Assembly (NCBI GenBank): GCA_902826165.1
Contig: CADEDV010000005.1
Span: 4,499 to 68,498 of the forward strand
DNA from: an uncultured Bacteroidota bacterium
Lineage (GTDB): Bacteria > Bacteroidota > Bacteroidia > Chitinophagales > Chitinophagaceae
Direction of reading: 5' to 3'
DNA: 64,000 bases
Below, in pieces: positions 7,550 to 21,508 of the stretch (positions are counted from its first letter, which is position 1; each line of letters starts with the position of its first letter). Under the pieces are notes generated by a model. The model was not told the DNA's origin. It worked only from the letters and a program-made list of their open reading frames with translations, and ran no database searches. Both the position numbers and the translations under genes were made by a program.

Positions 7550-9253
7550 ATGACAGTAAAAAGATGGAATCAACTTACTATTGACCGGGAAAAGACCGAA
7601 GCTTTACAGCAGGCGCTGAAAGTAAATCCTGTTATCTGTAGTATCCTGGGGCAACGGGGTGTTGACACCTATGATGCGGCTAAAGATTTTTTCAGGCCCC
7701 AACTATCAGACCTGCATGATCCCTGGCTGATGAAGGATATGGCGAAAGCTGTGGAAAGAATTATTACTGCTGTTAACAGTAATGAAAAAATTCTTGTCTT
7801 TGGCGATTATGATGTGGATGGCACTACGTCTGTTGCCTGTATGTACCAGTTCTTAAAAAAGATCCACTCCAATCTTGATTTTTATATACCGCACCGTTAC
7901 CGGGAAGGATACGGGGTGAGCAAAGCTGGGATTGATTTTGCCAGCGACAATAATTTTTCCCTTATCATTTCACTCGATTGCGGCATCAAGTCCGCTGAAC
8001 TTATTGCGTATGCCAAAACACTGGGTATAGATTTTATCGTTTGCGATCATCATCTTCCTGATGAAGTAGTTCCTGATGCAGTCGCCATACTGAATCCCAA
8101 ACAAAAAGACTGTACCTATCCCTATAAAGAATTATGTGGCTGTGGTGTTGGTTTTAAACTGATACAGGCACTGTCCCCGCAGTTCAGTCTTTCCGATAAC
8201 GATGTATATGAATTTCTCGACCTGTTGGCCACCGCCATTGCTGCCGATATTGTTCCGATGACAGGTGAGAACAGGATCATGGCTTTTCACGGATTGAAAA
8301 AAGCTAATGAAAACCCCAATAAGGGAATCAAAGCATTAATGCAACTCAGCGGATTGGGAAAAGAAATGCATATCAATAATCTTGTTTTCATGATTGCTCC
8401 CAGGGTGAATGCAGCAGGAAGAATGGATGATGCCCGCAAAGCAGTGCAGATGTTTGTCGCAGAAACGGAGAACGAAGCCCTTCACTATGCAGAAATGCTG
8501 CACAGTGATAATACTGACCGTAAAGAAGCAGACAGTAATATCACCGACGAAGCATTAACACTCATCCGGGAGAATGCAGCATGGACATCCCGCAAATCAA
8601 CACTGGTATTTAAAGAACACTGGCATAAAGGAGTGGTAGGGATTGTTGCTTCAAGATTGATCGAACATTATTACCGGCCTACCATTGTACTGACCCGGTC
8701 GGGGGATTATGCCGCCGGCAGTGCCCGCAGTGTTCCGGGTTTTAATTTATACGAAGCCATTCATGCCTGTCGTGAACATTTGTTGGGATACGGAGGTCAT
8801 TTTGCTGCAGCAGGAATGACATTGGAATTAGAACAGGTGGATGCATTCCGGGAAAAATTTGAACAGGTCGTCTCTTCCACCATCGACCCTGAATTATTGA
8901 TACCAGAGATCATTATTGATGCTGCCATTTCCTTAAAAGATATTACCTGGGGCTTCTATAATATACTGGGGCAAATGGAGCCCTTCGGGCCCGAAAATCT
9001 GCGTCCGGTTTTTGTTGCTGAAAAAGTAATGGATACCGGTTATTCCAAAATTGTAAAAGAACAGCACATCCGTTTTTCAGTGCGGCAGGATAATGTAACA
9101 ATCACGGGTATTGGTTTTGGCATGGCTGAAAAATTTGCCTTGCTGCAGTTAAAAAAATCGGTGGATATTGTTTTCAAAATTGATGAGAACGAATGGAACG
9201 GGGAAAAAAGCCTGCAGTTAAGAGTGATCGATTTCCGCCTTTCAGAGCAATAA
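7550..9253 (+). CDS. recJ: Single-stranded-DNA-specific exonuclease RecJ
   Basis: A 5'-to-3' exonuclease on single-stranded DNA that acts in recombination and mismatch repair. The 567-residue length is normal. The DHH phosphoesterase motifs are present: FGDYDVDGTTS (about residues 84-94), SLDCGIKS, and CDHHLPDE (about 164-171). The DHHA1 half carries SARSVPGFNLYEA and GYGGHFAAAGMTLE (about 412-425). The C-terminal OB domain follows (GQMEPFGPENLRPVF). All metal-binding aspartates and histidines I can place are intact. It follows polyprenyl synthetase closely and is followed by a secreted nuclease-fold gene that is not related to it. Confidence 0.96.
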   Translation: MTVKRWNQLTIDREKTEALQQALKVNPVICSILGQRGVDTYDAAKDFFRPQLSDLHDPWLMKDMAKAVERIITAVNSNEKILVFGDYDVDGTTSVACMYQFLKKIHSNLDFYIPHRYREGYGVSKAGIDFASDNNFSLIISLDCGIKSAELIAYAKTLGIDFIVCDHHLPDEVVPDAVAILNPKQKDCTYPYKELCGCGVGFKLIQALSPQFSLSDNDVYEFLDLLATAIAADIVPMTGENRIMAFHGLKKANENPNKGIKALMQLSGLGKEMHINNLVFMIAPRVNAAGRMDDARKAVQMFVAETENEALHYAEMLHSDNTDRKEADSNITDEALTLIRENAAWTSRKSTLVFKEHWHKGVVGIVASRLIEHYYRPTIVLTRSGDYAAGSARSVPGFNLYEAIHACREHLLGYGGHFAAAGMTLELEQVDAFREKFEQVVSSTIDPELLIPEIIIDAAISLKDITWGFYNILGQMEPFGPENLRPVFVAEKVMDTGYSKIVKEQHIRFSVRQDNVTITGIGFGMAEKFALLQLKKSVDIVFKIDENEWNGEKSLQLRVIDFRLSEQ

Positions 9254-9311: not shown

Positions 9312-10541
9312 ATGAAAAGAATTTTACTTTTCCTGTTTTTACTCCCTGTCATCAACCCGGCATCAACAGCTGCTCAAAGCAGTGCATCCACATTGGATGT
9401 GGTCAGCTGGAATATAGAATGGTTTGGCGATGTAAACAACGGACCTGCAAACAACGACCTGCAGGAAGCGAATACTAAGACGATCATGCGCTATCTTAAT
9501 GCAGACTTATATGGTCTTGTTGAGATCGTGGACTCCATGCGTATCAGAAGGCTGGTTGATTCGCTGGGCAATACAGAGTTTGGCTATGCCATCTCTCCTT
9601 TCTGTAGCAATAATACAACTGGTACCGGCAATAGCTGGCTGAACGGGCAAAAACTTGCATTTATTTACCGGAAATCTATTCTCTCTAATGTTAGTTTGCG
9701 TGGTCTGCTGAGATTTAATGCGAGCCTGGACGCTTATTCCAATTGGGCCTCGGGCCGTTTTCCATATATGTTATCAGCTACCGTTACCATTAACAGTGTC
9801 AGCAAGAATATTAACTTCATTGTTATCCATGGAAAAGCCGGAAGCACCGTAAGTGATTATGACCGACGTCGTGCTGGTGCCCAGGAATTAAAAGACAGCC
9901 TGGATGTTTACTATCCTTCTGCACTGAATATGATCATTGGCGATTATAATGATGCATTGAACCAAACCATTTCCAGCGGTGCAGGACCTGAAACATCTTA
10001 TCAGCCTATTGTAGTGGATAGCACAGATGCAGATCATTATAAATCGATCACTTTACCTCTTGCAGTTGCCGGGCAAACCAGTATGCTCAATTTTCCCAAC
10101 GTGGTGGACAACCATGTTATCTCCAATGAACTGGTGCCTTATTATGTGCCCGGTTCCGCACAGATCAGGACAGATGTTATCAATGTTGTCCCGGATTTTG
10201 TTACGACGCAGAATACCTCCGACCACTACCCTGTTTTCTCCAAATATGATCTGTCAGGTTTGATCACAGCTGTTCCCAATATTCCGGCTGCCGAAATGGG
10301 TATTGTTGCTTTCCCTAATCCTTTCGCCGGAGAAATAAATATGAAAGCCACAAAAACACTGACTAATGTTCAGCTGAACCTTTTAAATATGCAGGGACAA
10401 ATTATCAGTTCATCACATTATGGTCTCATTAATGCCGGATCAACCATCCGGTTACAAAATTCATCACTCTCTAAAGGAATGTATTTCCTGCAGCTTCAAA
10501 CAAAACAATTCAGGACAGTGATCAAGCTGACACATTTATAA
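9312..10541 (+). CDS. Secreted EEP-fold nuclease/phosphatase with T9SS sorting domain
   Basis: A 409-residue exported hydrolase. The signal peptide (to about TAAQ, residue 23) is followed by an endonuclease/exonuclease/phosphatase (EEP) domain (about 28-315) with the family's catalytic marks: VVSWNIEWFGD, LYGLVEIVDS (Mg-binding glutamate), FIVIHGKAGS, MIIGDYNDAL and SDHYPVFSKYD. The C-terminal 80 residues are a type A T9SS sorting domain (VAFPNPFAGEINMKATK, then GMYFLQLQTK), so the enzyme should be exported across the outer membrane and attached or released. The substrate may be extracellular DNA, RNA or a phospholipid. The fold alone does not say. Its terminator is shared with the convergent lamin-tail gene at 10616, and I group it with the nuclease-like locus that runs to 21508. 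Confidence 0.9.
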   Translation: MKRILLFLFLLPVINPASTAAQSSASTLDVVSWNIEWFGDVNNGPANNDLQEANTKTIMRYLNADLYGLVEIVDSMRIRRLVDSLGNTEFGYAISPFCSNNTTGTGNSWLNGQKLAFIYRKSILSNVSLRGLLRFNASLDAYSNWASGRFPYMLSATVTINSVSKNINFIVIHGKAGSTVSDYDRRRAGAQELKDSLDVYYPSALNMIIGDYNDALNQTISSGAGPETSYQPIVVDSTDADHYKSITLPLAVAGQTSMLNFPNVVDNHVISNELVPYYVPGSAQIRTDVINVVPDFVTTQNTSDHYPVFSKYDLSGLITAVPNIPAAEMGIVAFPNPFAGEINMKATKTLTNVQLNLLNMQGQIISSSHYGLINAGSTIRLQNSSLSKGMYFLQLQTKQFRTVIKLTHL

Positions 10542-10558
10542 ACCGGCTTACCACAAAT

Positions 10559-10593
10559 AAAAAATCCATCCGTTATAAGCGGATGGATTTTTT
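10559..10593. terminator. Bidirectional terminator between EEP gene and lamin-tail gene
   Basis: Arms aaatccatccg (10562-10572) and cggatggattt (10580-10590) pair perfectly around a 7-base loop, with A-rich sequence on the left and T-rich on the right. It therefore works for the plus-strand gene ending at 10541 and for the minus-strand gene ending at 10616. Confidence 0.9.
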
Positions 10594-10615
10594 ATTTATA
10601 ACAACAGACCTGCTG

Positions 10616-13600
10616 TTAAAGGATCAGTATGGTCTTTGTGGCAATGATATCATCGGTATTTACTAATTGTACCCTGTAGGTGCCTTTTGATATAGTTGAC
10701 GGCAATGTGATTGACTGGTTAATGAATGTAGCCTGTATGTTAATATTCTTCTGGTACACCAGTTTGCCTTCAGCATCCAGGAATAACAAAGCATAGTAGC
10801 CCGGTTTCAGGTTATTGATACTGAACTTCAGCTCAGCACCTGCCTGTGCGGGCACCGGAAATATCCTGAACTCATTTGGAATGGCAGCCAGCGTAAATGA
10901 TTGCTGTGCGCCATAACCGGTACCGCCTGCATTTTTTGCATATGCCTTATAGTAATATGTAGCTCCCTGCACAAGGCCTGTCACCTGTGTGCTGAAGGCT
11001 ACGGTGGAAAGGACTTTAGTTCCTGTACCATCTGCAAAGCCATTGATACCACTGTACTCAAAGCCAAGTTCTGTAAGCGCAGTACAACCATTACCCGCTG
11101 CAGTACCGTTTAATACCACACTACTGGTCGTAATAGTTGAAGCAGCACCCGTTGTTACTGTCGGCGTAGTATTAACACCAGCACCGGTAACCGCTGCGTT
11201 TACTGTGCCTGTTACACCGCCGCCTGTTACAAGTATATTACCATTATAAGCTTGTACTGCTGTTGGTGTAAATTTCACATAGACCGTCTTGCTTTGTGTG
11301 CCGCCGGTTTGAGTGATACTCAATGAAGCGGTATAAGTGCCGCCCGCTGTTTCAGCAAACGTATAACCAGCTAAAGGCCCAACAGTAATATTTGCTGTAG
11401 TGAGATTGGTTCCGTTAATAACAAATGAATTCGGACCAGCCTCTGTGTTGATACAGGTACTGCCAAACCCATTTAATGCTGTTACTGTGATAGCAGGTGG
11501 CGGTGGCGCAGCCGTTGTAAATGTTTGTTGTGCGCCGTAGCTTGTTCCGCCGCTATTAGTAGCATATGCTTTATAATAATAAACAGTGTTAACGGTCAAA
11601 CCACTTAATGCAGAAGAGAAATCACCTGTTGCCAGGTTGGAGGAGGCTACCTGCGTTCCTGTACCGTTCGGGAAGTTATTGGTCGTACTATATTCAATTC
11701 CATAAGCTGTAACAGCCGTACATCCAGTTGCAGTAATACTACCGGCAACAGTAGCTGTGGTTTGTGCGATGGCACTTGCAGCTCCAGAAGTGACTGATGG
11801 AGCCGTGTTCACCCCGGCACCTGCTGCTGCTACGTTAACAGCTACAGCAATACCACCGCCATTGACCACTATATTTCCATCATAAGATTGAACAGCTGTT
11901 GGAGCAAATTGTACAAATATTTCCTGGGAATAAGTGCCCCCGGGTTGTGTTAATGTCAGCGTGGTTGTATAAGTACCTCCCGCAGTTGTTGAATAAGTAT
12001 AGCCAGCCAATGCAGCTACTGTTACATCAGCAGTAGTAAGATTGGTACCTGAAATAGTAAATGAATTCGGCCCCGCCGTTGTATTGATACACACATTACC
12101 AAATGTTGTCAACGCTGTTACATTAATAGTCGGGTTGGGTGTAGCAGTAGTAAATGATTGTTCTGCACCATAGGATGTACCACCTGTATTGGTGGCATAG
12201 GCATGATAATAATATGTAGTACCGTTTGCAAGTGTAACCAGGTCTGAACTGAAGTTTCCTCCAGCCAGGTTAGTGGATGCAACAGCAGTACCGGTTCCGT
12301 TAGCAAAACCAGCTGTAGTGCTGTATTCAATACCGTAAGCAGTAACAGCAGTGCAGCCTGTTGCCGTGATACTGCCTGCTACCGTAGCAGTAGTTTGTGT
12401 GATCACACTGGCAACACCTGAAGTTACAGCCGGTGCCGTATTCACACCGGCTCCTGAAGCAGCTGCATTCACCAGCGTGGCACCACCACCTGCCACAGCA
12501 ATATTTCCATTGTAGGACTGAACAGCTGTTGGATCAAATTTTACAAATACCTGCTGGGAGAATGTACCACCCGGCTGTGCCAGCGTTAATGTTGTTGTAT
12601 AAGTACCGCCTGCAGTTGTTGAATACGTATAACCAGCTAATGCAGCTACTGTTACATCAGCAGTGGTAAGGTTAGAACCTGAAATCATAAATGAATTCGG
12701 GCCTGCTGTTGTATTGATACATACGTTACCAAAAGCTGCTAATGGAGATGAGATAGTTAATGATGGAGATCCTGCACCACATATTACAACGGGTGAAGCG
12801 CTGTTGCGGGGAACTGGAGCTGTTACTACATCAAAGTCTGCATTATTATTATCAGTATCTGTACATCCATTGTTTTTTCTGACAGCACCCTGTACAGATG
12901 TAATGGCCACGCCATTATTTACAGAAACGCCGCCCTCTGCATTATTGGCAGTACCCCATGCAACAAGGTCAACGATAGAAGCTGATGGCAGAACACAAGG
13001 TACTGCTGTACTACCACATCCCAAGGCTGTGACCTGGTTTGCCAACGCTACTTTACCCGATACACCACTCATTGTAAGATTAGTAGTTATTGCGTCAGGT
13101 GTAACAGGTAATGCTGCTCCTGCAGTACCCGCAGCACTAAGTTGTACTAAATAATATCCGCCTGCTGGTATTGATACGTTTGGTAATGCAAAAATGTTAG
13201 TGGCAGTTGATCCAAACAACCCAGTAGAAGATCCATACTGAAGCGACATTCCGTTAATAGACTGGGTAGTTGCACTACTATTATGCAACTCAACATAATC
13301 ATGCAGGTAAGTCCCTGTAGTGCCACCGCCACCACCATAAGCCTGGCTGATTACCACCCCTGCAGTTGGAGTTGATGACGATGTTGTAAAGGATTGTTCT
13401 GCACCATAGGCTGTACCCGTGCCATTTGTTGCATAAGCATGATAATAATACGTAGTTGCTAATGTCAGGCCGGAAAGTCCAGAAGAAAAAGTAGTACCAA
13501 CTAAGTTGGTTGATGCCACTGCAGTTCCTGTTCCGTTGGCAAAACCAGCTGTCGTACTGTATTCAATGCCGTAAGCGGTAATAACTGAACAACCTGTTGC

Positions 13601-14731
13601 CGTGATTGAACCGGCGACAGTTGCAGAAGTCTGTGTGATCGTACTGGCAGCACCCGATGTGACTGTCGCCACTGAACTGCTCACACCGGCACCTGAAGCT
13701 GCAGCATCCACGGAAGAAGCACCACCACCACCAACGGTAATATTTCCATTGTATGACTGAACAGCAGTTGGATCAAATTTCACAAACACCTGTTGGGAGA
13801 AAGAACCTCCGGGTTGTGTCAGTGATAATGTTGCTGTATAAGTACCCCCGGCTGTTGTTGAATATGTATATCCTGTCAACGCCGCCACGGTTACATTTGC
13901 TGCAGTAAGGTTAGAGCCGGAAATAGTAAATGAATTTGGGCCAGCTGTGGTATTGATACAAATATTACCAAAGGCAGGTAAAGGTGAAGAGATAGATAAT
14001 AAAGGGCTGGCAGATCCTGCCGGAGTTACAGAAGCCCAGGTTGCTCCGACTAATATCGCATCTACTTGTTGCGTGGATGCATTGGTTGTACTTCCCTGCC
14101 TCAGGTAAATTGCCCCGATCGTAGTAGCATCAAGACTTGTGCCGGTTACATTCGCAATTGTAGCAGGTGTTTCTGCCCCACCTAATGCAGGATTCACCCA
14201 TAAGTTAATCACATCATCTGTCGTTGTACCAGCATTATAGATATAATTAGATACTACAAAATAAGTTGCACCGAAAGTTCTTGAAGTAGTCTCATAAACA
14301 GCTGTAGAATTACCTTTTCCAACACCAAAAAAGAAACCACCTGCTCCATCTGACTTTGCATACAACCTGACCGGAAATATAGCAGTGGTTTGAAAAAGGC
14401 CAATAAAGTAATCTCCTGTAGCCTGGGCGGCACTGACGTTAACCAAAAAAGAAAAATAAATACTTCCGGTAGTAATGGCAGTAAATGTTTTATTGGCATC
14501 TTCACCGGTTGTTGTCATTGATACTGCATTACCCACACCAGAGCCGGGATGTCCTGCGTATGTTAATCCTGGTGTTGTCACAGTGATCGCATTTGTAGTA
14601 CCTGAGTATGCTGTCCATCCATTTGCAGTTATCAATTGCCCGGCTGTATAGTTAAAATCTTCTGTCAGCACTTGCGCAAATGATATATTAACTGCCAGCA
14701 AAAAACTCAGAAAAAAATAAAGTTTCTTCAT
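10616..14731 (-). CDS. Giant T9SS surface protein with lamin-tail domain and four Ig-like/FnIII-like repeat pairs
   Basis: A 1371-residue secreted protein. After a signal peptide (to about FAQ, residue 20) comes a jelly-roll-like domain (about 22-235, starting LTEDFNYTAGQLITANGW). Four tandem units of about 205 residues follow. Each is an Ig-like part containing CINTTAGPNSF (choice-of-anchor D-like) and a fibronectin-like part ending TYYYHAYATN...GAEQSFTT. A lamin-tail domain (VVISQAYGGGGGT to about PVVICG, residues 457-650) is inserted between units 1 and 2. The last 75 residues (FRIFPVPAQAGAELKFS to TKTILIL) are a T9SS sorting domain. No catalytic motif is visible. Lamin-tail domains often accompany secreted nucleases in bacteria, so a DNA-binding or scaffold role beside the two EEP enzymes is possible, but this is inference. 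It is separated from the upstream DUF5689 gene by a terminator hairpin. Confidence 0.85.
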   Translation of the reverse strand: MKKLYFFLSFLLAVNISFAQVLTEDFNYTAGQLITANGWTAYSGTTNAITVTTPGLTYAGHPGSGVGNAVSMTTTGEDANKTFTAITTGSIYFSFLVNVSAAQATGDYFIGLFQTTAIFPVRLYAKSDGAGGFFFGVGKGNSTAVYETTSRTFGATYFVVSNYIYNAGTTTDDVINLWVNPALGGAETPATIANVTGTSLDATTIGAIYLRQGSTTNASTQQVDAILVGATWASVTPAGSASPLLSISSPLPAFGNICINTTAGPNSFTISGSNLTAANVTVAALTGYTYSTTAGGTYTATLSLTQPGGSFSQQVFVKFDPTAVQSYNGNITVGGGGASSVDAAASGAGVSSSVATVTSGAASTITQTSATVAGSITATGCSVITAYGIEYSTTAGFANGTGTAVASTNLVGTTFSSGLSGLTLATTYYYHAYATNGTGTAYGAEQSFTTSSSTPTAGVVISQAYGGGGGTTGTYLHDYVELHNSSATTQSINGMSLQYGSSTGLFGSTATNIFALPNVSIPAGGYYLVQLSAAGTAGAALPVTPDAITTNLTMSGVSGKVALANQVTALGCGSTAVPCVLPSASIVDLVAWGTANNAEGGVSVNNGVAITSVQGAVRKNNGCTDTDNNNADFDVVTAPVPRNSASPVVICGAGSPSLTISSPLAAFGNVCINTTAGPNSFMISGSNLTTADVTVAALAGYTYSTTAGGTYTTTLTLAQPGGTFSQQVFVKFDPTAVQSYNGNIAVAGGGATLVNAAASGAGVNTAPAVTSGVASVITQTTATVAGSITATGCTAVTAYGIEYSTTAGFANGTGTAVASTNLAGGNFSSDLVTLANGTTYYYHAYATNTGGTSYGAEQSFTTATPNPTINVTALTTFGNVCINTTAGPNSFTISGTNLTTADVTVAALAGYTYSTTAGGTYTTTLTLTQPGGTYSQEIFVQFAPTAVQSYDGNIVVNGGGIAVAVNVAAAGAGVNTAPSVTSGAASAIAQTTATVAGSITATGCTAVTAYGIEYSTTNNFPNGTGTQVASSNLATGDFSSALSGLTVNTVYYYKAYATNSGGTSYGAQQTFTTAAPPPPAITVTALNGFGSTCINTEAGPNSFVINGTNLTTANITVGPLAGYTFAETAGGTYTASLSITQTGGTQSKTVYVKFTPTAVQAYNGNILVTGGGVTGTVNAAVTGAGVNTTPTVTTGAASTITTSSVVLNGTAAGNGCTALTELGFEYSGINGFADGTGTKVLSTVAFSTQVTGLVQGATYYYKAYAKNAGGTGYGAQQSFTLAAIPNEFRIFPVPAQAGAELKFSINNLKPGYYALLFLDAEGKLVYQKNINIQATFINQSITLPSTISKGTYRVQLVNTDDIIATKTILIL
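10880..11497 (-). repeat. Repeat unit 4 of the lamin-tail protein
   Basis: Fourth Ig-like plus FnIII-like pair. It starts ITVTALNGFGSTCINTEAGP and is the most diverged of the four (CINTEAGP in place of CINTTAGP). Confidence 0.8.
11508..12133 (-). repeat. Repeat unit 3 of the lamin-tail protein
   Basis: Third pair, starting INVTALTTFGNVCINTTAGP. It shares long stretches of near-identical DNA with unit 2, for example around 12056-12090 and 12680-12714, which suggests recent duplication or gene conversion. Confidence 0.85.
12134..12772 (-). repeat. Repeat unit 2 of the lamin-tail protein
   Basis: Second pair, starting LTISSPLAAFGNVCINTTAG, directly after the lamin-tail insertion. It is closest in sequence to units 1 and 3. 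Confidence 0.85.
13375..14010 (-). repeat. Repeat unit 1 of the lamin-tail protein
   Basis: First pair, starting LSISSPLPAFGNICINTTAG, N-terminal to the lamin-tail domain. Confidence 0.85.
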
Positions 14732-14756
14732 ATCAATTCAGTTTATCGAAATATTA

Positions 14757-14788
14757 TAGAAAATGAGCAGTTCTTCGTACTGCTCATT
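14757..14788 (-). terminator. Terminator after the 701-residue DUF5689 gene
   Basis: A perfect 10-bp stem, aatgagcagt (14762-14771) with actgctcatt (14779-14788), has a 7-base loop. On the minus strand it is followed by TTTTCTATAAT. It separates the receptor-DUF5689 operon from the lamin-tail gene, which may therefore be expressed at a different level. Confidence 0.8.
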
Positions 14789-14794
14789 AAAATT

Positions 14795-16900
14795 TTAATT
14801 CCACGAAACAGATAAATCATCCAGTGCAGTGGAGGCACGGCTGCCACTTCCTGTGGTTCCCGTAAGTGTTACAATCCTGATCCATACTTTCTGGTTCTGG
14901 TTATCAAGTGCATTGCCAAAATTTACCGCAACGGCAGTACTTCCAAATACATTACTGGTTGTCAGGGTGGCAGGGTTTGTTGTAACTGCCGTAAAAGAAG
15001 CAGGCGCATCACCAAAACCATATTCTACAATCCAGCTTGTAGTTCTTCCAATGCTGTTATCAAGCGACTGGAGCAAAAAGCTCATCTGGAAATTTGTTTT
15101 TCCTGTTGTGTTATCAAGTAAAAAAGTATAGGCTGCTCCCGGATCATACCCGGCAGAACTTGTCTGACGAATGCCCAATGCCCTGTCGGCAGACCCATTT
15201 TGAGCTGCGGCATCGCTTGTTGCAACAAGCCCCGTTGCTGATGCAAAGTTTTTCAGACCTGCACTTGTCTGATTCCATGCAGTTGGTGTACCCAGCCCAC
15301 TTCCATACTGTGGCATGTCACCGGTGCCAATTGAAGAAGCAGTTGCCCCTATTTTTACATATATACCTTGTGGAAGGCCGGCGGCAATTCCATTAAAATT
15401 TTGTACGTATGGTGATGAAACTAACAGGAGGCCGGAGCTGGGTGGAGGGCCGCTTCCAGCAACAACATCTGAGAGATTCCGGATAGAAATTTCTTTTGTA
15501 GCATTGAAGGGTGTGAGGTATCCAACCAGTGAGGTTGCTGTTGCCGGGTAAGGAGTAGTGGCGAATGTTGCAGCACTGGAAGTAAAGGCTATTAAACTTC
15601 CCGTTCCATCGTTCAGGGATACATTTCCGCTCCAGTTTCCTCCTGAGCCGCCTGTTAATGAATTAATGTTAACGATTTGTATTAATGTTGACTCCCAGGT
15701 TTCAAAATTGGTATTTATTTCACTAATAGTAGCCGTACGGGGGGTGATCGTTTTTCCCGATGCTATTAAACTTGCGTAACCTAATGGAACATTATTCACC
15801 TGTAGTAATCCATTGAATTCAGAAAGTTCCTGCCCGGAAACATTCACATCAACAGAATCTCCAAGATTAAAACTGTGCGTTGCATCAAATCGTACTAAAA
15901 TACCTGAAAGGTTATTACCCTGCTGCAGATAAATATTCCGGTTATTCAGATTATTTGTACTTCTGTCGCTGATCACCACCCCGGTAATTCTTCTGCCAAC
16001 AGGAGCATTCGTTACCGAACCGGTAAACAAAGCTCTGACATCGGCTGTATTCATCAACGTGGTTGGCCCGCTTCCGCAACGGGAACCATTGAAACGAACA
16101 TCTGTCGTATCGCGGATCGTAAACTGTTTTGTACTGTTAAAAATAGAATATACACCTATTATTTCCCCATTACCCTGTGGTACGGGAATGGTGGCAAAGT
16201 TTGAATAATTACTGGTTCTTAAAGTAAGCCGGTTCGTAGCAGGATTTGCACAACCTTGTATAATACGGTTGCCTGACTGATCATCGTCTGCATAATTCTT
16301 ACCGAGTTCACCTGCTCCAAATTCAAAATCCTGTAATTTAACCAGCGTATTCACATACCTGTCCTGCAGCGTGGTACCCAATTGCGAAACAGAAACAATT
16401 TTTGGAACGAGCGGCTGGTTCAATGCCCCTTTCACTAAATGCTGACCCTGTAAATTGACGGCAAGAAGCGTAACTCCGCCGCCGCCGGCTTCAAGACCAC
16501 CTCCAATTTGTATCATCCTGCCATATTCCCCCAGGTACAGGCCCTGGCATTTTACAAAAACCTGGCGGCCCACAGGGTAGTTATTATAGAGATTGTTGCC
16601 TGCCAAACGAAGCAGGATGCCTCCTGTAGAATCCTGTATAGCTATCTGCTGATAAAAATTACCGCTTCTGTCATCACAGGTAACAACACCTTCTATTACG
16701 ACATTATCGGATATAGCAACAGTAGTTCCGGTTGCCGTAAGCCTTGCTTTAAGATCTTTGATTGTTGTATTGGCAACAATATCCGGGGCTCCATCAAAAG
16801 GAGGGTCATCATATTTCTTTTTACAGGAAGTTACCAGCAGGCTGATGGCAAGTATTCCCATCAGACCGCTCACCAGTGTAGTAATAATTTTCATTTTCAT
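14795..16900 (-). CDS. DUF5689 surface lipoprotein, long form
   Basis: A 701-residue lipoprotein of the Bacteroidota DUF5689 family. The signal ends in a lipobox (LLVTSCKKK). Residues of about 40-275 form one DUF5689 module (IVANTTIKDLKARL, VVIEGVVTCDDRSGN, IQDSTGGILLRL). A second, similar module covers about 280-490 (NTADVRALFTGSV, RRITGVVISDRSTNN). The C-terminal 200 residues (SSPYVQNFNGIAAGLPQGIY to LDDLSVSWN) look like a jelly-roll binding domain. The modules resemble OB-like folds, but I cannot assign an enzymatic role. It lies 39 bp after the short DUF5689 gene and downstream of the TonB-dependent receptor, a position typical of surface lipoproteins that work with such a receptor. Confidence 0.82.
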   Translation of the reverse strand: MKMKIITTLVSGLMGILAISLLVTSCKKKYDDPPFDGAPDIVANTTIKDLKARLTATGTTVAISDNVVIEGVVTCDDRSGNFYQQIAIQDSTGGILLRLAGNNLYNNYPVGRQVFVKCQGLYLGEYGRMIQIGGGLEAGGGGVTLLAVNLQGQHLVKGALNQPLVPKIVSVSQLGTTLQDRYVNTLVKLQDFEFGAGELGKNYADDDQSGNRIIQGCANPATNRLTLRTSNYSNFATIPVPQGNGEIIGVYSIFNSTKQFTIRDTTDVRFNGSRCGSGPTTLMNTADVRALFTGSVTNAPVGRRITGVVISDRSTNNLNNRNIYLQQGNNLSGILVRFDATHSFNLGDSVDVNVSGQELSEFNGLLQVNNVPLGYASLIASGKTITPRTATISEINTNFETWESTLIQIVNINSLTGGSGGNWSGNVSLNDGTGSLIAFTSSAATFATTPYPATATSLVGYLTPFNATKEISIRNLSDVVAGSGPPPSSGLLLVSSPYVQNFNGIAAGLPQGIYVKIGATASSIGTGDMPQYGSGLGTPTAWNQTSAGLKNFASATGLVATSDAAAQNGSADRALGIRQTSSAGYDPGAAYTFLLDNTTGKTNFQMSFLLQSLDNSIGRTTSWIVEYGFGDAPASFTAVTTNPATLTTSNVFGSTAVAVNFGNALDNQNQKVWIRIVTLTGTTGSGSRASTALDDLSVSWN

Positions 16901-16939
16901 AATTAGCTTATTATTTTCAAACTGTTTCCGGTTCTTTGC

Positions 16940-17671
16940 TTATTGTATATCAGTGGCACTGCGAATACCTATTTGAGTTGTAGTGTTATAAATAGATACA
17001 TAGCCTGTAACCGTTGTGCCTGCAGTATTAATTGTAATACCCGATACTGTTCTTACAAACATGGATAAAGTGCCGGTCGCATCCGTAATATCATAAGTAA
17101 TACCTGTTGAGTTGGAGGATGCCTGTGTTATCGAAGTAACATTAGCTATTTTAACTAATGAAGAAGCCCATGTATCCCGGTTAGTAATAATTTCTGCAAT
17201 GGTCGCCGTACGTGGCACCGCTGTAAATGTTCCTGCCAAAGGCAGCACACGGGATTGGGGCACACTTTTTAGCTCAAGATCTCCATTCCACACCGTAAAC
17301 ACACCAACACCTTCTGCATCAATTTCAAGTACGGTGCCCTGCGAATAAACAGGTGATCCGGGAACTGAATATAAATACAGACCTCCTCCGGCTTCGTCTT
17401 GCAGCCGGTAATTCCCAACAGCTTCATTTGCGCTGTTAGAAATAACAACCCCTCTTATTTTTTTGGTTCCCGCAGGAATAGTCATGTCCCCGCTTCCTGT
17501 ATATAAAGCTCTGAATTCTGTTAAGTTCAGGTATTTTCCCGGAGGAGGAGGTGGCAAAGGATCGGGTTCTACCGGGCCGACAGGTTGTTTATCGCAGGAA
17601 AGGGTAAATACAGATATTAACGACAGCATAATTGCCGTTACAATTCTCAAACTTTTTTTCTTTAATCGCAT
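16940..17671 (-). CDS. DUF5689 surface lipoprotein, short form
   Basis: A 243-residue lipoprotein with a lipobox (FTLSCDKQP) followed by a proline-rich spacer (PVEPDPLPPPPPGKY, about residues 34-47) that would hold the domain away from the membrane. The remainder is one DUF5689 module: YLNLTEFRALYTGSGD, KKIRGVVISNSANE, RLQDEAGGGLYLY, then TATIAEIITNRDTWASSLVK and GYVSIYNTTTQIGIRSATDI. It aligns by eye with both modules of the longer neighbour, so the pair probably arose by duplication. It sits 28 bp downstream of the receptor stop, in the same transcript. Function is unknown; substrate capture for the receptor is inference. Confidence 0.82.
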   Translation of the reverse strand: MRLKKKSLRIVTAIMLSLISVFTLSCDKQPVGPVEPDPLPPPPPGKYLNLTEFRALYTGSGDMTIPAGTKKIRGVVISNSANEAVGNYRLQDEAGGGLYLYSVPGSPVYSQGTVLEIDAEGVGVFTVWNGDLELKSVPQSRVLPLAGTFTAVPRTATIAEIITNRDTWASSLVKIANVTSITQASSNSTGITYDITDATGTLSMFVRTVSGITINTAGTTVTGYVSIYNTTTQIGIRSATDIQ

Positions 17672-17699
17672 ACTATTTATTTTACAACGCTTAAAAATA

Positions 17700-20291
17700 T
17701 TAAAACCTGAGGGTTGCGCCGGCGAAGAAGTTCAGTCCGTACGCATAATAGAGTTTCGGGGGAAATTTACCGGTACTCACAGGATCACTTGATGCAGTCT
17801 GTGCATCATAACGCAGTTGCTCGAAACCACCTGTGATAATATCTTTTGTATTCAAAATATTATTCACTCCAAGGTTAAAGGCAATGAAGGTGGGTTTGTG
17901 GTTGATCTCAAAATCTTTCGGCAATTTCCAGGAATAGCCACCAAAGAAATCCAGTGTGTATTGTGCATCAAATTTGGTCTGGTCAAATATCTGGTGATAC
18001 TTATCGCCATTGTACTCTACAAATTTCAATGCATCATAGGTGCGGCGCAGCGGGTTAAAACTTAACCAGGACTGGTCGAAATAATTACCGGTTAAACTGA
18101 CAAACCAGAATTTAGGAGACCGGTAAGTAACGCCTAAGCTGTATGCTTCCTGAGGTGTGGAGGGCACCCTGAAGTTTTCTGCATAGATGATCTGCTCACC
18201 CAATACAGAAGCACTGTTATCAACAGTGATCGTGGCGTGTTGCTTGCTGTCGTAATAGTAACGGCCGAGTGCAGCCGCTGCATTCACGGTAATAGTTGGT
18301 GTCACTTTGGCTTCAATACCAAACTCACCACCAAAATGCAATTTATCAATACCATTGATGGCATAGTTCACGAAATTCTGGTAGGCATCATGATAGAAAG
18401 ACATCACATCCATACCATCCTGGAAACGGGTATAATAACCTCCCACCCTGATCTTGAACTTGGGTGCGTTCATAATATAACCCCCTTCCACGGTTTGTAT
18501 GGTTTCACTTTCAACCGTACCTTGTTGTGCATTGCGGGTTCTTGGAGAAACATATACATTTTCAAAGTAGGGTGATCTTGTGAGGTAAGAGCCATTTACA
18601 AAAACATAGTTACGGCCATCGATCTTATAAGTTACACCGGCTTTGGCCGCATAATTATGAAATTCATTGGTTGTTCCTTTTCCATAAGAATCATTGGGAA
18701 ACAAACCATTTTTTACATTTCCATCCCGGTGAAAAGAAGTGAAGGTGTATTGCCCGGCCAGGAAGAAATCAACCTTCGTGAATTTGAAAACACCCTGTGC
18801 CCAGCCCGAAGCACGGCTGATATTAATATTATAATCATAGCCGAATTTATCGCCCTGGTATAAGATACGGTTAGGGTTGTCCAGGTCAAACTGGATCGCA
18901 TTGTTATCAGTAGGAAAATCTCTTTCTGCAAACTGGTTCACATTCACATAAAACTCTCCGCCCAGCAGATCATTTACTTCCTTATAATAATGATTATTCT
19001 GCATCTGGTAAGAAGCACCACCGGTAAACTCAATATGCTCACCAAATTTTGTGTTGATCACAGAGTTCAGGTTCAGCCGCTGTGTGTTGATGATCCTTTC
19101 TTCAATAATATAACGGGAACGTCTTCCGCTAACGGTATTACCGGGGATCCCGTTTGCATTATTAATGCTGGCAAAACTTGCCCTGTTCACATTGTATAGG
19201 TTATGCCAGTTGATCTGGCGGTAATTGATATCATTCTTCATCAGCTCGTACAACTGTGCCCCTTGCGCAGCATCAGGTGTACTGGCCCAGGTGGACGTAT
19301 AGCTGGGTAAATAACGATAATAATCAGGCCGTGGATCAGCAGCATTATACCAGTCCAGTGCCGTTACACTTCTATCACCAAAGGAATAGCCGGCAGCAGT
19401 CGTGATGGTTGTATTATTATTTAAGCGAAAATCATGAGAGAGGATAAATACCGGCTGGTGTGTTTTACCAACACTGGCATTTCTTTTCTTTCCATTCTGG
19501 TAGCCCCAGTTAGGATTATAATAATTCGTACCTGCCAGGTCAATCATCTCCTGTACAGAAGCACCCTGCCTGCCGTTCTCTGTTGGCGCACCAAAAACAG
19601 TGAAAGAAAGCAGATGATTTTGCCCGATACGTTTATCTACTGCAGCAAAATAACCCCAGCCATCATAATAAGTTCCGGGCACATAGCCTTCATCAGCCCA
19701 GCGACGGCTGCCGCTTAGGGTAAAAGCCCAGCCTTTTTTGCTCACACCCGTTGAATGGGTCAGCATGATCCGGTTATTATAATTACGGTTGGAAGCAGCA
19801 TAACTGATGCTGGTCTGTGCCCGCTGACGGCTGGCACGGGAGTCAATATTCGTATTCCCACCAATATCACCAAACGCAAACGTATTATTACGAAGCCCCC
19901 ACACATTATCACGGTTGCGCATCACATCATTCAATCCGCCCCAAAGGCCAAACGGGGTAAACCCATTGTCCAGGTTATCCATCGGGATACCATTCATATA
20001 CGTACTAAAATGATCATTATCATACCCGCGGATACGAAAACGAACAGCACTGAAGTTAAAAGCAGCAGCAGAATAAAAAGGATCTCTTCCGGCTGTTAAC
20101 AAGGAAGAAATGTTTTGGTTTCCCCCATCTCCCAAATCGTTGTCGTCCAGGGAAACGGTAGGGATATTATCCAGCACCGCATCTTTCAGCTCGTCAGTAA
20201 TAATAGTATCTTTTTTTAAGGTAGAGTCAACCTGTGCCATGGCCACCGATCCGGCGAAAAGGAAGAGCAGCAGCAGTCTTGATTTTAGCAT
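17700..20291 (-). CDS. TonB-dependent outer-membrane receptor
   Basis: An outer-membrane transporter of 863 residues with start ATG at 20291. An in-frame start 93 bases upstream would put the promoter inside the gene and spoil the signal peptide, which here is MLKSRLLLLFLFAGSVAMAQ. The plug domain is seen from about 40 to 150 (NISSLLTAGRDPFYSAAAFN, RFRIRGYDNDHFSTYMNGIP). A long beta-barrel ends in the aromatic FFAGATLRF. There is no N-terminal carboxypeptidase-like domain, so it is not a SusC-type receptor, and I see no SusD gene. It heads the operon with the two DUF5689 lipoproteins and is divergent from the EEP gene at 20450. The imported substrate is unknown; nucleic-acid breakdown products or phosphate esters fit the context. 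Confidence 0.9.
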   Translation of the reverse strand: MLKSRLLLLFLFAGSVAMAQVDSTLKKDTIITDELKDAVLDNIPTVSLDDNDLGDGGNQNISSLLTAGRDPFYSAAAFNFSAVRFRIRGYDNDHFSTYMNGIPMDNLDNGFTPFGLWGGLNDVMRNRDNVWGLRNNTFAFGDIGGNTNIDSRASRQRAQTSISYAASNRNYNNRIMLTHSTGVSKKGWAFTLSGSRRWADEGYVPGTYYDGWGYFAAVDKRIGQNHLLSFTVFGAPTENGRQGASVQEMIDLAGTNYYNPNWGYQNGKKRNASVGKTHQPVFILSHDFRLNNNTTITTAAGYSFGDRSVTALDWYNAADPRPDYYRYLPSYTSTWASTPDAAQGAQLYELMKNDINYRQINWHNLYNVNRASFASINNANGIPGNTVSGRRSRYIIEERIINTQRLNLNSVINTKFGEHIEFTGGASYQMQNNHYYKEVNDLLGGEFYVNVNQFAERDFPTDNNAIQFDLDNPNRILYQGDKFGYDYNINISRASGWAQGVFKFTKVDFFLAGQYTFTSFHRDGNVKNGLFPNDSYGKGTTNEFHNYAAKAGVTYKIDGRNYVFVNGSYLTRSPYFENVYVSPRTRNAQQGTVESETIQTVEGGYIMNAPKFKIRVGGYYTRFQDGMDVMSFYHDAYQNFVNYAINGIDKLHFGGEFGIEAKVTPTITVNAAAALGRYYYDSKQHATITVDNSASVLGEQIIYAENFRVPSTPQEAYSLGVTYRSPKFWFVSLTGNYFDQSWLSFNPLRRTYDALKFVEYNGDKYHQIFDQTKFDAQYTLDFFGGYSWKLPKDFEINHKPTFIAFNLGVNNILNTKDIITGGFEQLRYDAQTASSDPVSTGKFPPKLYYAYGLNFFAGATLRF

Positions 20292-20314
20292 GCAAATAGT
20301 TTTTTTCGAGTCCG

Positions 20315-20322
20315 CAAAATTA
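20315..20322 (-). promoter_or_regulatory. Probable -7 element of the receptor operon
   Basis: TAATTTTG on the minus strand (complement of 20315-20322) fits TAnnTTTG and lies 24 bp before the ATG at 20291. I could not find a convincing -33 TTG, so this is tentative. Confidence 0.45.
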
Positions 20323-20417
20323 ACGAGTGTAAGTTGTAAGGGAATAAAAAGTTTGACACATAATATTTTATTAACCACAGGCATCTTTTTATCATCATTT
20401 CGCTTCTATTGTTTCAG

Positions 20418-20425
20418 TATGTTTG
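20418..20425 (+). promoter_or_regulatory. Probable -7 element of the second EEP gene
   Basis: TATGTTTG fits TAnnTTTG and lies 24 bp before the ATG at 20450. With the receptor -7 element on the other strand it makes a back-to-back promoter region of about 100 bp in which one regulator could control both directions. Confidence 0.5.
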
Positions 20426-20449
20426 CGTCCCTGATTTTAATCATAGGCT

Positions 20450-21508
20450 ATGAAGAAAATGATCTACCTGTTTTTTTTGCTGGTTTCCTGCCTGTCGGCT
20501 ACTGCACAAAAAAAAGAATATAAAACTGCCGTCATCAGTTTTTATAACCTTGAAAACTTATATGACACGGTAGACAACCCGATCACTAATGATGAGGAAT
20601 TTTTGCCTATTGGTGTCCGGAATTATAATACCCCGGTCTACCTGGACAAATTAAATAAACTGGCCACTGTTATTTCACAGATCGGGAAAGAAGTTAATGC
20701 AGACGGACCTGCCCTATTGGGTGTGGCAGAAGTAGAAAATGATACGGTATTAAAAGATTTGGTCCGTCATAAACTGCTGGAGAAGAGAAATTATAAGATC
20801 GTTCATTATGATTCCCGGGATATCCGGGGAGTGGATGTCGGCCTTTTATATAATCCAAAATATTTTACGGTTGACGCCAGTGATAAATTGTTCGTTCAGT
20901 TACCCGGCGGATCAAAAGATGCCTATTTTACCCGTGATATTCTTTGGGTAAAAGGAAAACTCGATGGCGAAACCGTTCATATTTATGTGAACCACTGGCC
21001 CAGCCGGAGTGGCGGTGAACAGCGTAGTGCTCCTGCCCGGCAAGCTGCAGCCGCCGTTTGTAAACATCATATTGATTCGATTGCTAAACTGGAACCGAAT
21101 GCAAGGATCATCATCATGGGTGATTTAAATGACGATCCCATCAATGCCAGTGTGGCCGATGTGCTGGGTGCAAAAGGCAAACAAAAAGATGTTCGCCCCG
21201 GAGGCTTATTCAATCCCTGGACGGAGTTATACAGAAAAGGAATTGGCACCCTTGCTTACCAGGATGCATGGGGACTTTTTGACCAGATCATCATTTCCCA
21301 ACCCTTTATGGATAAAGAACAGGCTGGTTTCTTTTTTTACCAGCAACACATCTTCCAGCGGGAGTTTATGGTGGAAAACAAGGGCCGCTACAAAGGATAC
21401 CCGATGCGGACCTGGGACGGTAACAGCTATCGCGGCGGTTACAGCGACCACTTCCCTACTTACCTGGTCTTTTTAAAAACAGTGAAACCGGGATTAAAAG
21501 GGTTTTAA
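20450..21508 (+). CDS. Secreted EEP-fold endonuclease/phosphatase, no T9SS tail
   Basis: A 352-residue exported protein with signal peptide MKKMIYLFFLLVSCLSATAQ. The EEP domain spans almost the whole mature protein: ISFYNLENLYDTVD (28-41), LLGVAEVEND (Mg-binding glutamate), HIYVNHWPSRSGGEQ, RIIIMGDLNDDP and a C-terminal YSDHFPTYLVF that supplies the catalytic histidine. It has no sorting tail, so it should stay in the periplasm unless carried otherwise. That makes it a natural second-stage enzyme to the T9SS-exported EEP protein at 9312. VNHWPSRSGG is common in secreted DNA-acting members, but the substrate is not proven. It shares a divergent promoter region with the TonB-dependent receptor. 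Confidence 0.88.
   Translation: MKKMIYLFFLLVSCLSATAQKKEYKTAVISFYNLENLYDTVDNPITNDEEFLPIGVRNYNTPVYLDKLNKLATVISQIGKEVNADGPALLGVAEVENDTVLKDLVRHKLLEKRNYKIVHYDSRDIRGVDVGLLYNPKYFTVDASDKLFVQLPGGSKDAYFTRDILWVKGKLDGETVHIYVNHWPSRSGGEQRSAPARQAAAAVCKHHIDSIAKLEPNARIIIMGDLNDDPINASVADVLGAKGKQKDVRPGGLFNPWTELYRKGIGTLAYQDAWGLFDQIIISQPFMDKEQAGFFFYQQHIFQREFMVENKGRYKGYPMRTWDGNSYRGGYSDHFPTYLVFLKTVKPGLKGF

Follow-up and report, generated by a model that had tools for sequence, protein, structure and literature searches.

In other Gram-negative bacteria, DNA enters through the outer membrane by means of a type IV pilus and PilQ and is then imported in a ComEC-dependent manner. How DNA passes over the outer membrane is poorly known in Bacteroidota, be they soil, aquatic or animal-associated. 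The closest described case is that of Riemerella anatipestifer, in which markerless deletion of either RA0C_RS04915, encoding a receptor, or RA0C_RS04920, encoding a DUF5689 protein, brought transformation below detection (Huang et al., 2021, PMC8459023). These genes were called a unique machinery, homologues of RS04915 were reported only in Flavobacteriaceae, and the step from double- to single-stranded DNA was left to a protein yet to be named (PMC8459023). For RS04910, only transcription was measured and no deletion was made, and the transposon screen of 3000 mutants, which was far from saturating, missed the EEP-family gene considered below (PMC8459023). Transformation of R. anatipestifer is lowered by mutations in tonBA or tonBB and is affected by iron limitation (PMC8383284), and Flavobacterium johnsoniae, in which homologues are present, could not be transformed in the conditions used (PMC7965970, PMC8459023). 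In the literature that we searched, preprints aside, PMC8459023 was the only paper naming DUF5689, and no work after 2021 on RS04915/RS04920 was found.

We analysed a window of 64,000 nucleotides (contig CADEDV010000005.1) from an uncultured bacterium of the family Chitinophagaceae, in which an initial annotation had singled out six genes as a possible locus for the capture of extracellular nucleic acid or phosphodiesters. All six ORFs were found in the layout described there, and Pfam and NCBIfam profile searches of the six ORF products, from which the labels below are taken, back each of them:

9312-10541, + strand: T9SS-exported EEP-family enzyme, 409 aa (Por_Secre_tail, E = 1.5e-10), putative secreted nuclease
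10616-14731, - strand: secreted multi-domain protein, 1371 aa, with a lamin-tail domain (E = 3e-8)
14795-16900, - strand: DUF5689 lipoprotein, long form, 701 aa (DUF5689, E = 1e-90)
16940-17671, - strand: DUF5689 lipoprotein, short form, 243 aa (DUF5689, E = 2e-9)
17700-20291, - strand: TonB-dependent receptor (TBDR), ORF 17700-20384, 863 aa from the ATG at 20291, with a weak TonB plug match
20292-20449, no strand: divergent intergenic region between the receptor and EEP genes, 158 bp, putative shared promoter region
20450-21508, + strand: signal-peptide EEP enzyme, Exo_endo_phos_3 (PF19580, E = 7e-117)

The receptor start was reset to the signal-peptide start at 20291, which leaves 158 bp before the divergent EEP gene; the divergent order of these two genes, already noticed in the initial annotation, is kept in most of the loci compared below. 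The T9SS EEP gene is closely preceded, at 7550-9253 of the window, by recJ, which encodes a single-strand DNA exonuclease and is a conserved neighbour. Among the 164 receptor loci described below, recJ is found at most about 10 kb from the receptor in 18, and in several it is directly convergent with the DUF5689 gene (e.g., L145).

In both the window and R. anatipestifer, the genes for an orthologous receptor and a DUF5689 lipoprotein are neighbours in the same order, and an EEP gene occupies the RS04910 position in divergent orientation; ComEC, DprA, a helix-hairpin-helix (HHH) protein and DUF1343/NamZ homologues are encoded in both genomes, with the window HHH protein sharing 33% identity with its Riemerella counterpart over 188 aa. 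The window differs from R. anatipestifer in that its receptor has no N-terminal carboxypeptidase-like domain, its lipoprotein of 701 aa has two DUF5689 regions and scores below the M949_1556 cut-off, a further DUF5689 gene and the T9SS EEP and lamin-tail genes are added, and comEC lies outside the locus. Like SusCD transporters, the window pairs a TonB-dependent receptor with an adjacent surface lipoprotein, but this lipoprotein is a DUF5689 protein and not a SusD-family protein. No SusD match was obtained in any of the six proteins with Pfam or NCBIfam, in agreement with the earlier description of a pathway without SusD, and a SusCD system was ruled out for lack of SusD. Lamin-tail and EEP modules are also found in the extracellular nucleases ExeM and Xds (PMC6085458, PMC6746945), where they are parts of one secreted nuclease, whereas in the window they are distributed among distinct proteins linked to an outer-membrane receptor. 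The route that we propose for the window resembles type IV pilus/PilQ uptake in that DNA would first enter through the outer membrane and would then be imported by ComEC; in contrast, a TonB-dependent receptor and a lipoprotein are present in place of pilus and secretin, and the locus contains no pilus genes.

The comparison with R. anatipestifer was drawn from genome G198 (2,164,087 bp), in which the gene order is recA-dinB-sdhB-sdhA-sdhC-comEC-145 aa ORF-pccB-EEP-TBDR-DUF5689; the genes that we take to be dinB, sdh and pccB were named by eye from the sequence, and the others by Pfam. This order fits RA0C_RS04870 (RecA), RS04895 (ComEC), RS04915 and RS04920 when numbered in steps of five, the domains (RecA, Competence, CarboxypepD_reg and DUF5689+DUF5017) match the published ones, and the G198 lipoprotein scores 599.3 bits, above the cut-off of 475, against the NCBIfam model M949_1556 (NF052645), M949_1556 being a Riemerella gene. 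From synteny, domains and subfamily match we infer that G198 is of the R. anatipestifer ATCC 11845 type. Given this identity, the gene order, domains and subfamily score together indicate that the gene at the RS04910 position encodes an EEP enzyme. The window and G198 receptors fall into one family alignment and are reciprocal best matches (E = 5e-115, 33% over 828 aa), the next match in the window genome having an E value of 7.5e-5, which identifies the window receptor as an orthologue of RS04915, provided that G198 is R. anatipestifer. The DUF5689 gene lies downstream of the window receptor on the same strand, with the short DUF5689 gene intervening. Against the M949_1556 model, the long window lipoprotein reaches 124.9 bits, under the cut-off of 475, a score that points to a relative of this subfamily and not a member.

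Only in L054 (4405-6213) and L057 (4608-6368), both Riemerella-type loci, was comEC seen near the EEP and receptor genes, at about 2-4 kb, and adjacency to comEC was rejected as a general feature. The transformation lipoprotein of L054 (12731-14134) is of the same family as M949_1556, which, as cited in PMC12566107, has been the subject of separate work on antigenicity and pathogenicity with strain CH3; the literatures on transformation and on M949_1556 pathogenicity seem unjoined.

To define the conserved part of the locus, receptor orthologues were searched for in 148 genomes spread over the phylum. Chitinophagales and Flavobacteriales yielded clear orthologues, and other groups weaker paralogues, with order names inferred from named records and kinship labels. 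We compared 164 receptor loci, comprising 20 from the phylum sample, 4 from Weeksellaceae, 80 from named records among the matches listed (mostly Flavobacteriales) and 60 from the family of the window; 161 of them had sufficient flanking sequence for linkage counts. In 127 of the 161 loci, a divergent EEP gene is located no more than 700 bp upstream of the receptor, and in 156 the receptor is immediately followed by a DUF5689 gene. For the phylum sample, which was drawn evenly, these counts are 14/20 for the EEP gene and 19/20 for the DUF5689 gene. Receptors from different orders are only about 30-35% identical, yet the arrangement of the third, fifth and sixth genes listed above recurs in most of the 161 loci. 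As genomes with this EEP family hold only one to three copies, the adjacency of receptor and EEP genes is far beyond chance. Loci without an adjacent EEP gene mostly belong to genomes that carry it elsewhere, at a distance of 17-44 kb in four Flavobacterium-like genomes. Across 294 Chitinophagaceae genomes, receptor and EEP are both present in 128, the receptor alone in 4, the EEP alone in 22 and neither in 140; the EEP is thus present in 128 of 132 TBDR-bearing genomes (Fisher p = 9e-54, with kinship ignored). The linkage and co-occurrence support one conserved system made up of receptor, DUF5689 lipoprotein and signal-peptide EEP enzyme. For these three, the earlier suggestion that the genes of the locus form one system is borne out, and the lack of conserved linkage that was named in advance as its refutation was clearly not what we saw. 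The suggestion does not extend to a single six-gene unit, which we rejected because, scattered relatives aside, neither the T9SS EEP gene nor the lamin-tail gene extends beyond the genus of the window and its nearest relatives.

We consider it likely that this core is the Chitinophagaceae form of a Bacteroidota outer-membrane DNA-uptake apparatus for ComEC-dependent transformation. The earlier suggestion that the locus handles nucleic acid is probably right; the transported substrate would be DNA, and the organism of the window would be transformable.

The long DUF5689 protein consists of a signal peptide with a lipobox, two DUF5689 regions and a C-terminal MAM/CBM-like jelly roll, and the lipoprotein N-terminal Cys is nearly invariant across 45 homologues. 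Its structural model (pLDDT 88) gave p204 HIN-dsDNA complexes as the best Foldseek matches (E = 1e-8), followed at lower ranks by IFI16 HIN and a HIN-ssDNA complex, with whole-chain TM-scores kept low by the multi-domain make-up of the protein. In the VIA-align list, all matches fell on the C-terminal jelly roll (Z = 11.6), and a sequence search of solved structures with the DUF5689 protein returned nothing informative. An OB-fold sequence match was present in 5 of the 45 homologues, each time below threshold. On the basis of the Foldseek search with the whole protein and these weak Pfam matches, the DUF5689 regions are predicted to be OB-like domains, and the lipoprotein may be a surface DNA-binding partner of the receptor, although OB-like folds bind non-DNA ligands too. 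The short DUF5689 copy, which sits between the receptor and the long form, is found in the same place in L031, L139, L140 and L142-L144 and appears to be a lineage-specific extra copy. In L035, L183, L184, L185 and L193, genes for other secreted proteins or unrelated genes are found downstream of the receptor in place of a recognised DUF5689 gene.

The TonB plug match of the window receptor is weak (E = 0.002), and in its model (pLDDT 75) the plug is poorly resolved and the barrel resembles FhuA, Fiu and PqqU. The best 50 structural matches are receptors of the classical FhuA/Fiu type and not SusC, and a sequence search of solved structures with the receptor gave nothing informative. The N-terminal carboxypeptidase-regulatory-like domain, which describes RS04915 but does not define its function, is absent from the window receptor and from many other Chitinophagaceae receptors (e.g., L031, L139, L145) and is kept in Flavobacteriales orthologues, including the G198 receptor, a pattern which we treat as loss at the level of a clade in a single family of orthologues. 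Two receptor copies are present in G433, G451, G507, G510 and G561, all from the family of the window, and in G451 an EEP gene adjoins both.

As the best structural matches are receptors for siderophores, PQQ and copper, it could be argued that the substrate is a siderophore, a vitamin or a peptide and that the loss of transformation in Riemerella is indirect, an argument to which the effects of iron limitation and of tonB mutations on transformation (PMC8383284) would lend weight. Loss of transformation upon deletion of the receptor does not in itself prove that DNA passes through it. However, such a likeness in fold is common to all TonB-dependent receptors, this one is constantly accompanied by an EEP nuclease and by a lipoprotein of OB-like fold, and deletion of either receptor or lipoprotein takes transformation below detection (PMC8459023), which together make a substrate other than DNA very improbable. 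We propose instead that the receptor could serve as an outer-membrane DNA channel.

In the EEP enzyme encoded at 20450-21508, residues N33, E35, E94, H182, D225, N227, D333 and H334 are conserved in 129 homologues, and a sequence search of solved structures found none resembling it. We propose that this enzyme may be a periplasmic DNA-processing nuclease. That the divergent EEP (the RS04910 family) constitutes a real processing step of transformation, between the TonB-dependent receptor and ComEC, is a tentative suggestion to which we give slightly less than even chances. EEP enzymes include phosphatase and phospholipase-type activities, and a sub-threshold sphingomyelinase match (E = 0.058), together with the absence of a solved structure resembling the enzyme by sequence, would also suit an esterase acting on, for example, lipids or inositol phosphates and linked to the receptor incidentally. 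We regard this as distinctly unlikely in light of the linkage and co-occurrence of the EEP with a transformation receptor and of the fusion of related EEP enzymes to a domain of the lipoprotein; an esterase activity can nevertheless be compatible with a role of receptor and lipoprotein in transformation. The fusions are found in the large secreted EEP proteins of L174 and L190, the latter with a T9SS tail, which carry the choice-of-anchor-J domain with which the Riemerella lipoprotein also ends. In addition, the lamin-tail part of the L032 DUF5689 lipoprotein matches the ExeM nuclease model (E = 1e-28). This sharing of choice-of-anchor-J and ExeM-type domains is a link between the lipoprotein and nucleases that does not depend on gene order.

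The two remaining genes have a narrower distribution. The T9SS EEP (9312-10541) matches the MnuA membrane nuclease below cut-off (E = 4.7e-9) and carries the EEP motif residues N, E, H, D, N and S-D-H, making it a probable secreted nuclease. The lamin-tail protein (10616-14731) contains repeated choice-of-anchor-D/fn3-like domains, and its C terminus is sorting-tail-like, with no sorting domain detected there by Pfam. Both genes are present at the locus in the genus of the window and its nearest relatives L031, L139, L140, L142 and L144, with L143 excluded as its sequence ends early; L148, L174 and L190 have a related EEP, and L165 has a related lamin-tail protein. This distribution suggests that the two genes are lineage-specific additions in the clade of the window.

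With two EEP enzymes and a lamin-tail protein surrounding the receptor, the locus could also serve nutrition, the EEP enzymes cutting DNA or RNA and the receptor importing the fragments as a source of phosphorus, nitrogen or carbon. Bacteroidota that feed on DNA commonly secrete nucleases (PMC8289736), and the receptor module is absent from about half of the Chitinophagaceae genomes that retain ComEC, which argues that it is not simply part of a general competence set. On the other hand, the orthologues of receptor and lipoprotein are required for transformation in Riemerella (PMC8459023), the T9SS EEP gene and the lamin-tail gene, which give the locus its nutritional look, are clade-specific, and removal of phosphate lowers rather than raises transformation of R. 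anatipestifer (PMC8383284), albeit with a different readout. Among the six genes we saw no phosphatase, nucleotidase, nucleoside transporter, or Pho-type gene or element. A nutrient or phosphate system was rejected on the latter ground and on the orthology pointing to transformation, so that the scavenging purpose first ascribed to the locus is not upheld. We consider a nutritional role unlikely, but feeding and transformation uses could coexist.

Under the transformation reading, the surface lipoprotein would bind extracellular DNA via its OB-like DUF5689 domains and the TonB-driven receptor would carry it over the outer membrane. In the periplasm, the DNA would be held by the helix-hairpin-helix protein and nicked or trimmed by the EEP enzyme, and single strands would reach the cytoplasm through ComEC and be acted on there by DprA and RecA. 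The comparison extends the receptor family to Chitinophagales, and its conserved nuclease partner is a named candidate for the double- to single-strand step. The module may offer a genomic marker for which species are transformable, which bears on gene exchange and genetic tractability. If the proposed role of the EEP enzyme is correct, entry would proceed by TonB-driven transport and EEP trimming and not by a type IV pilus, and the means for transformation would be widespread in Chitinophagales as well as Flavobacteriales.

Nearly all Chitinophagaceae genomes encode ComEC and the HHH protein. Co-occurrence of receptor and ComEC is weak (Fisher p = 0.04, with kinship ignored) and that of receptor and HHH protein is uninformative; both proteins are too widespread to lend statistical support to a tie with the receptor. 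Within genus g131, G571 and G610 have the receptor, ComEC and the HHH protein, and G358, G453 and G523 have none of the three, a pattern that suggests joint loss of competence genes.
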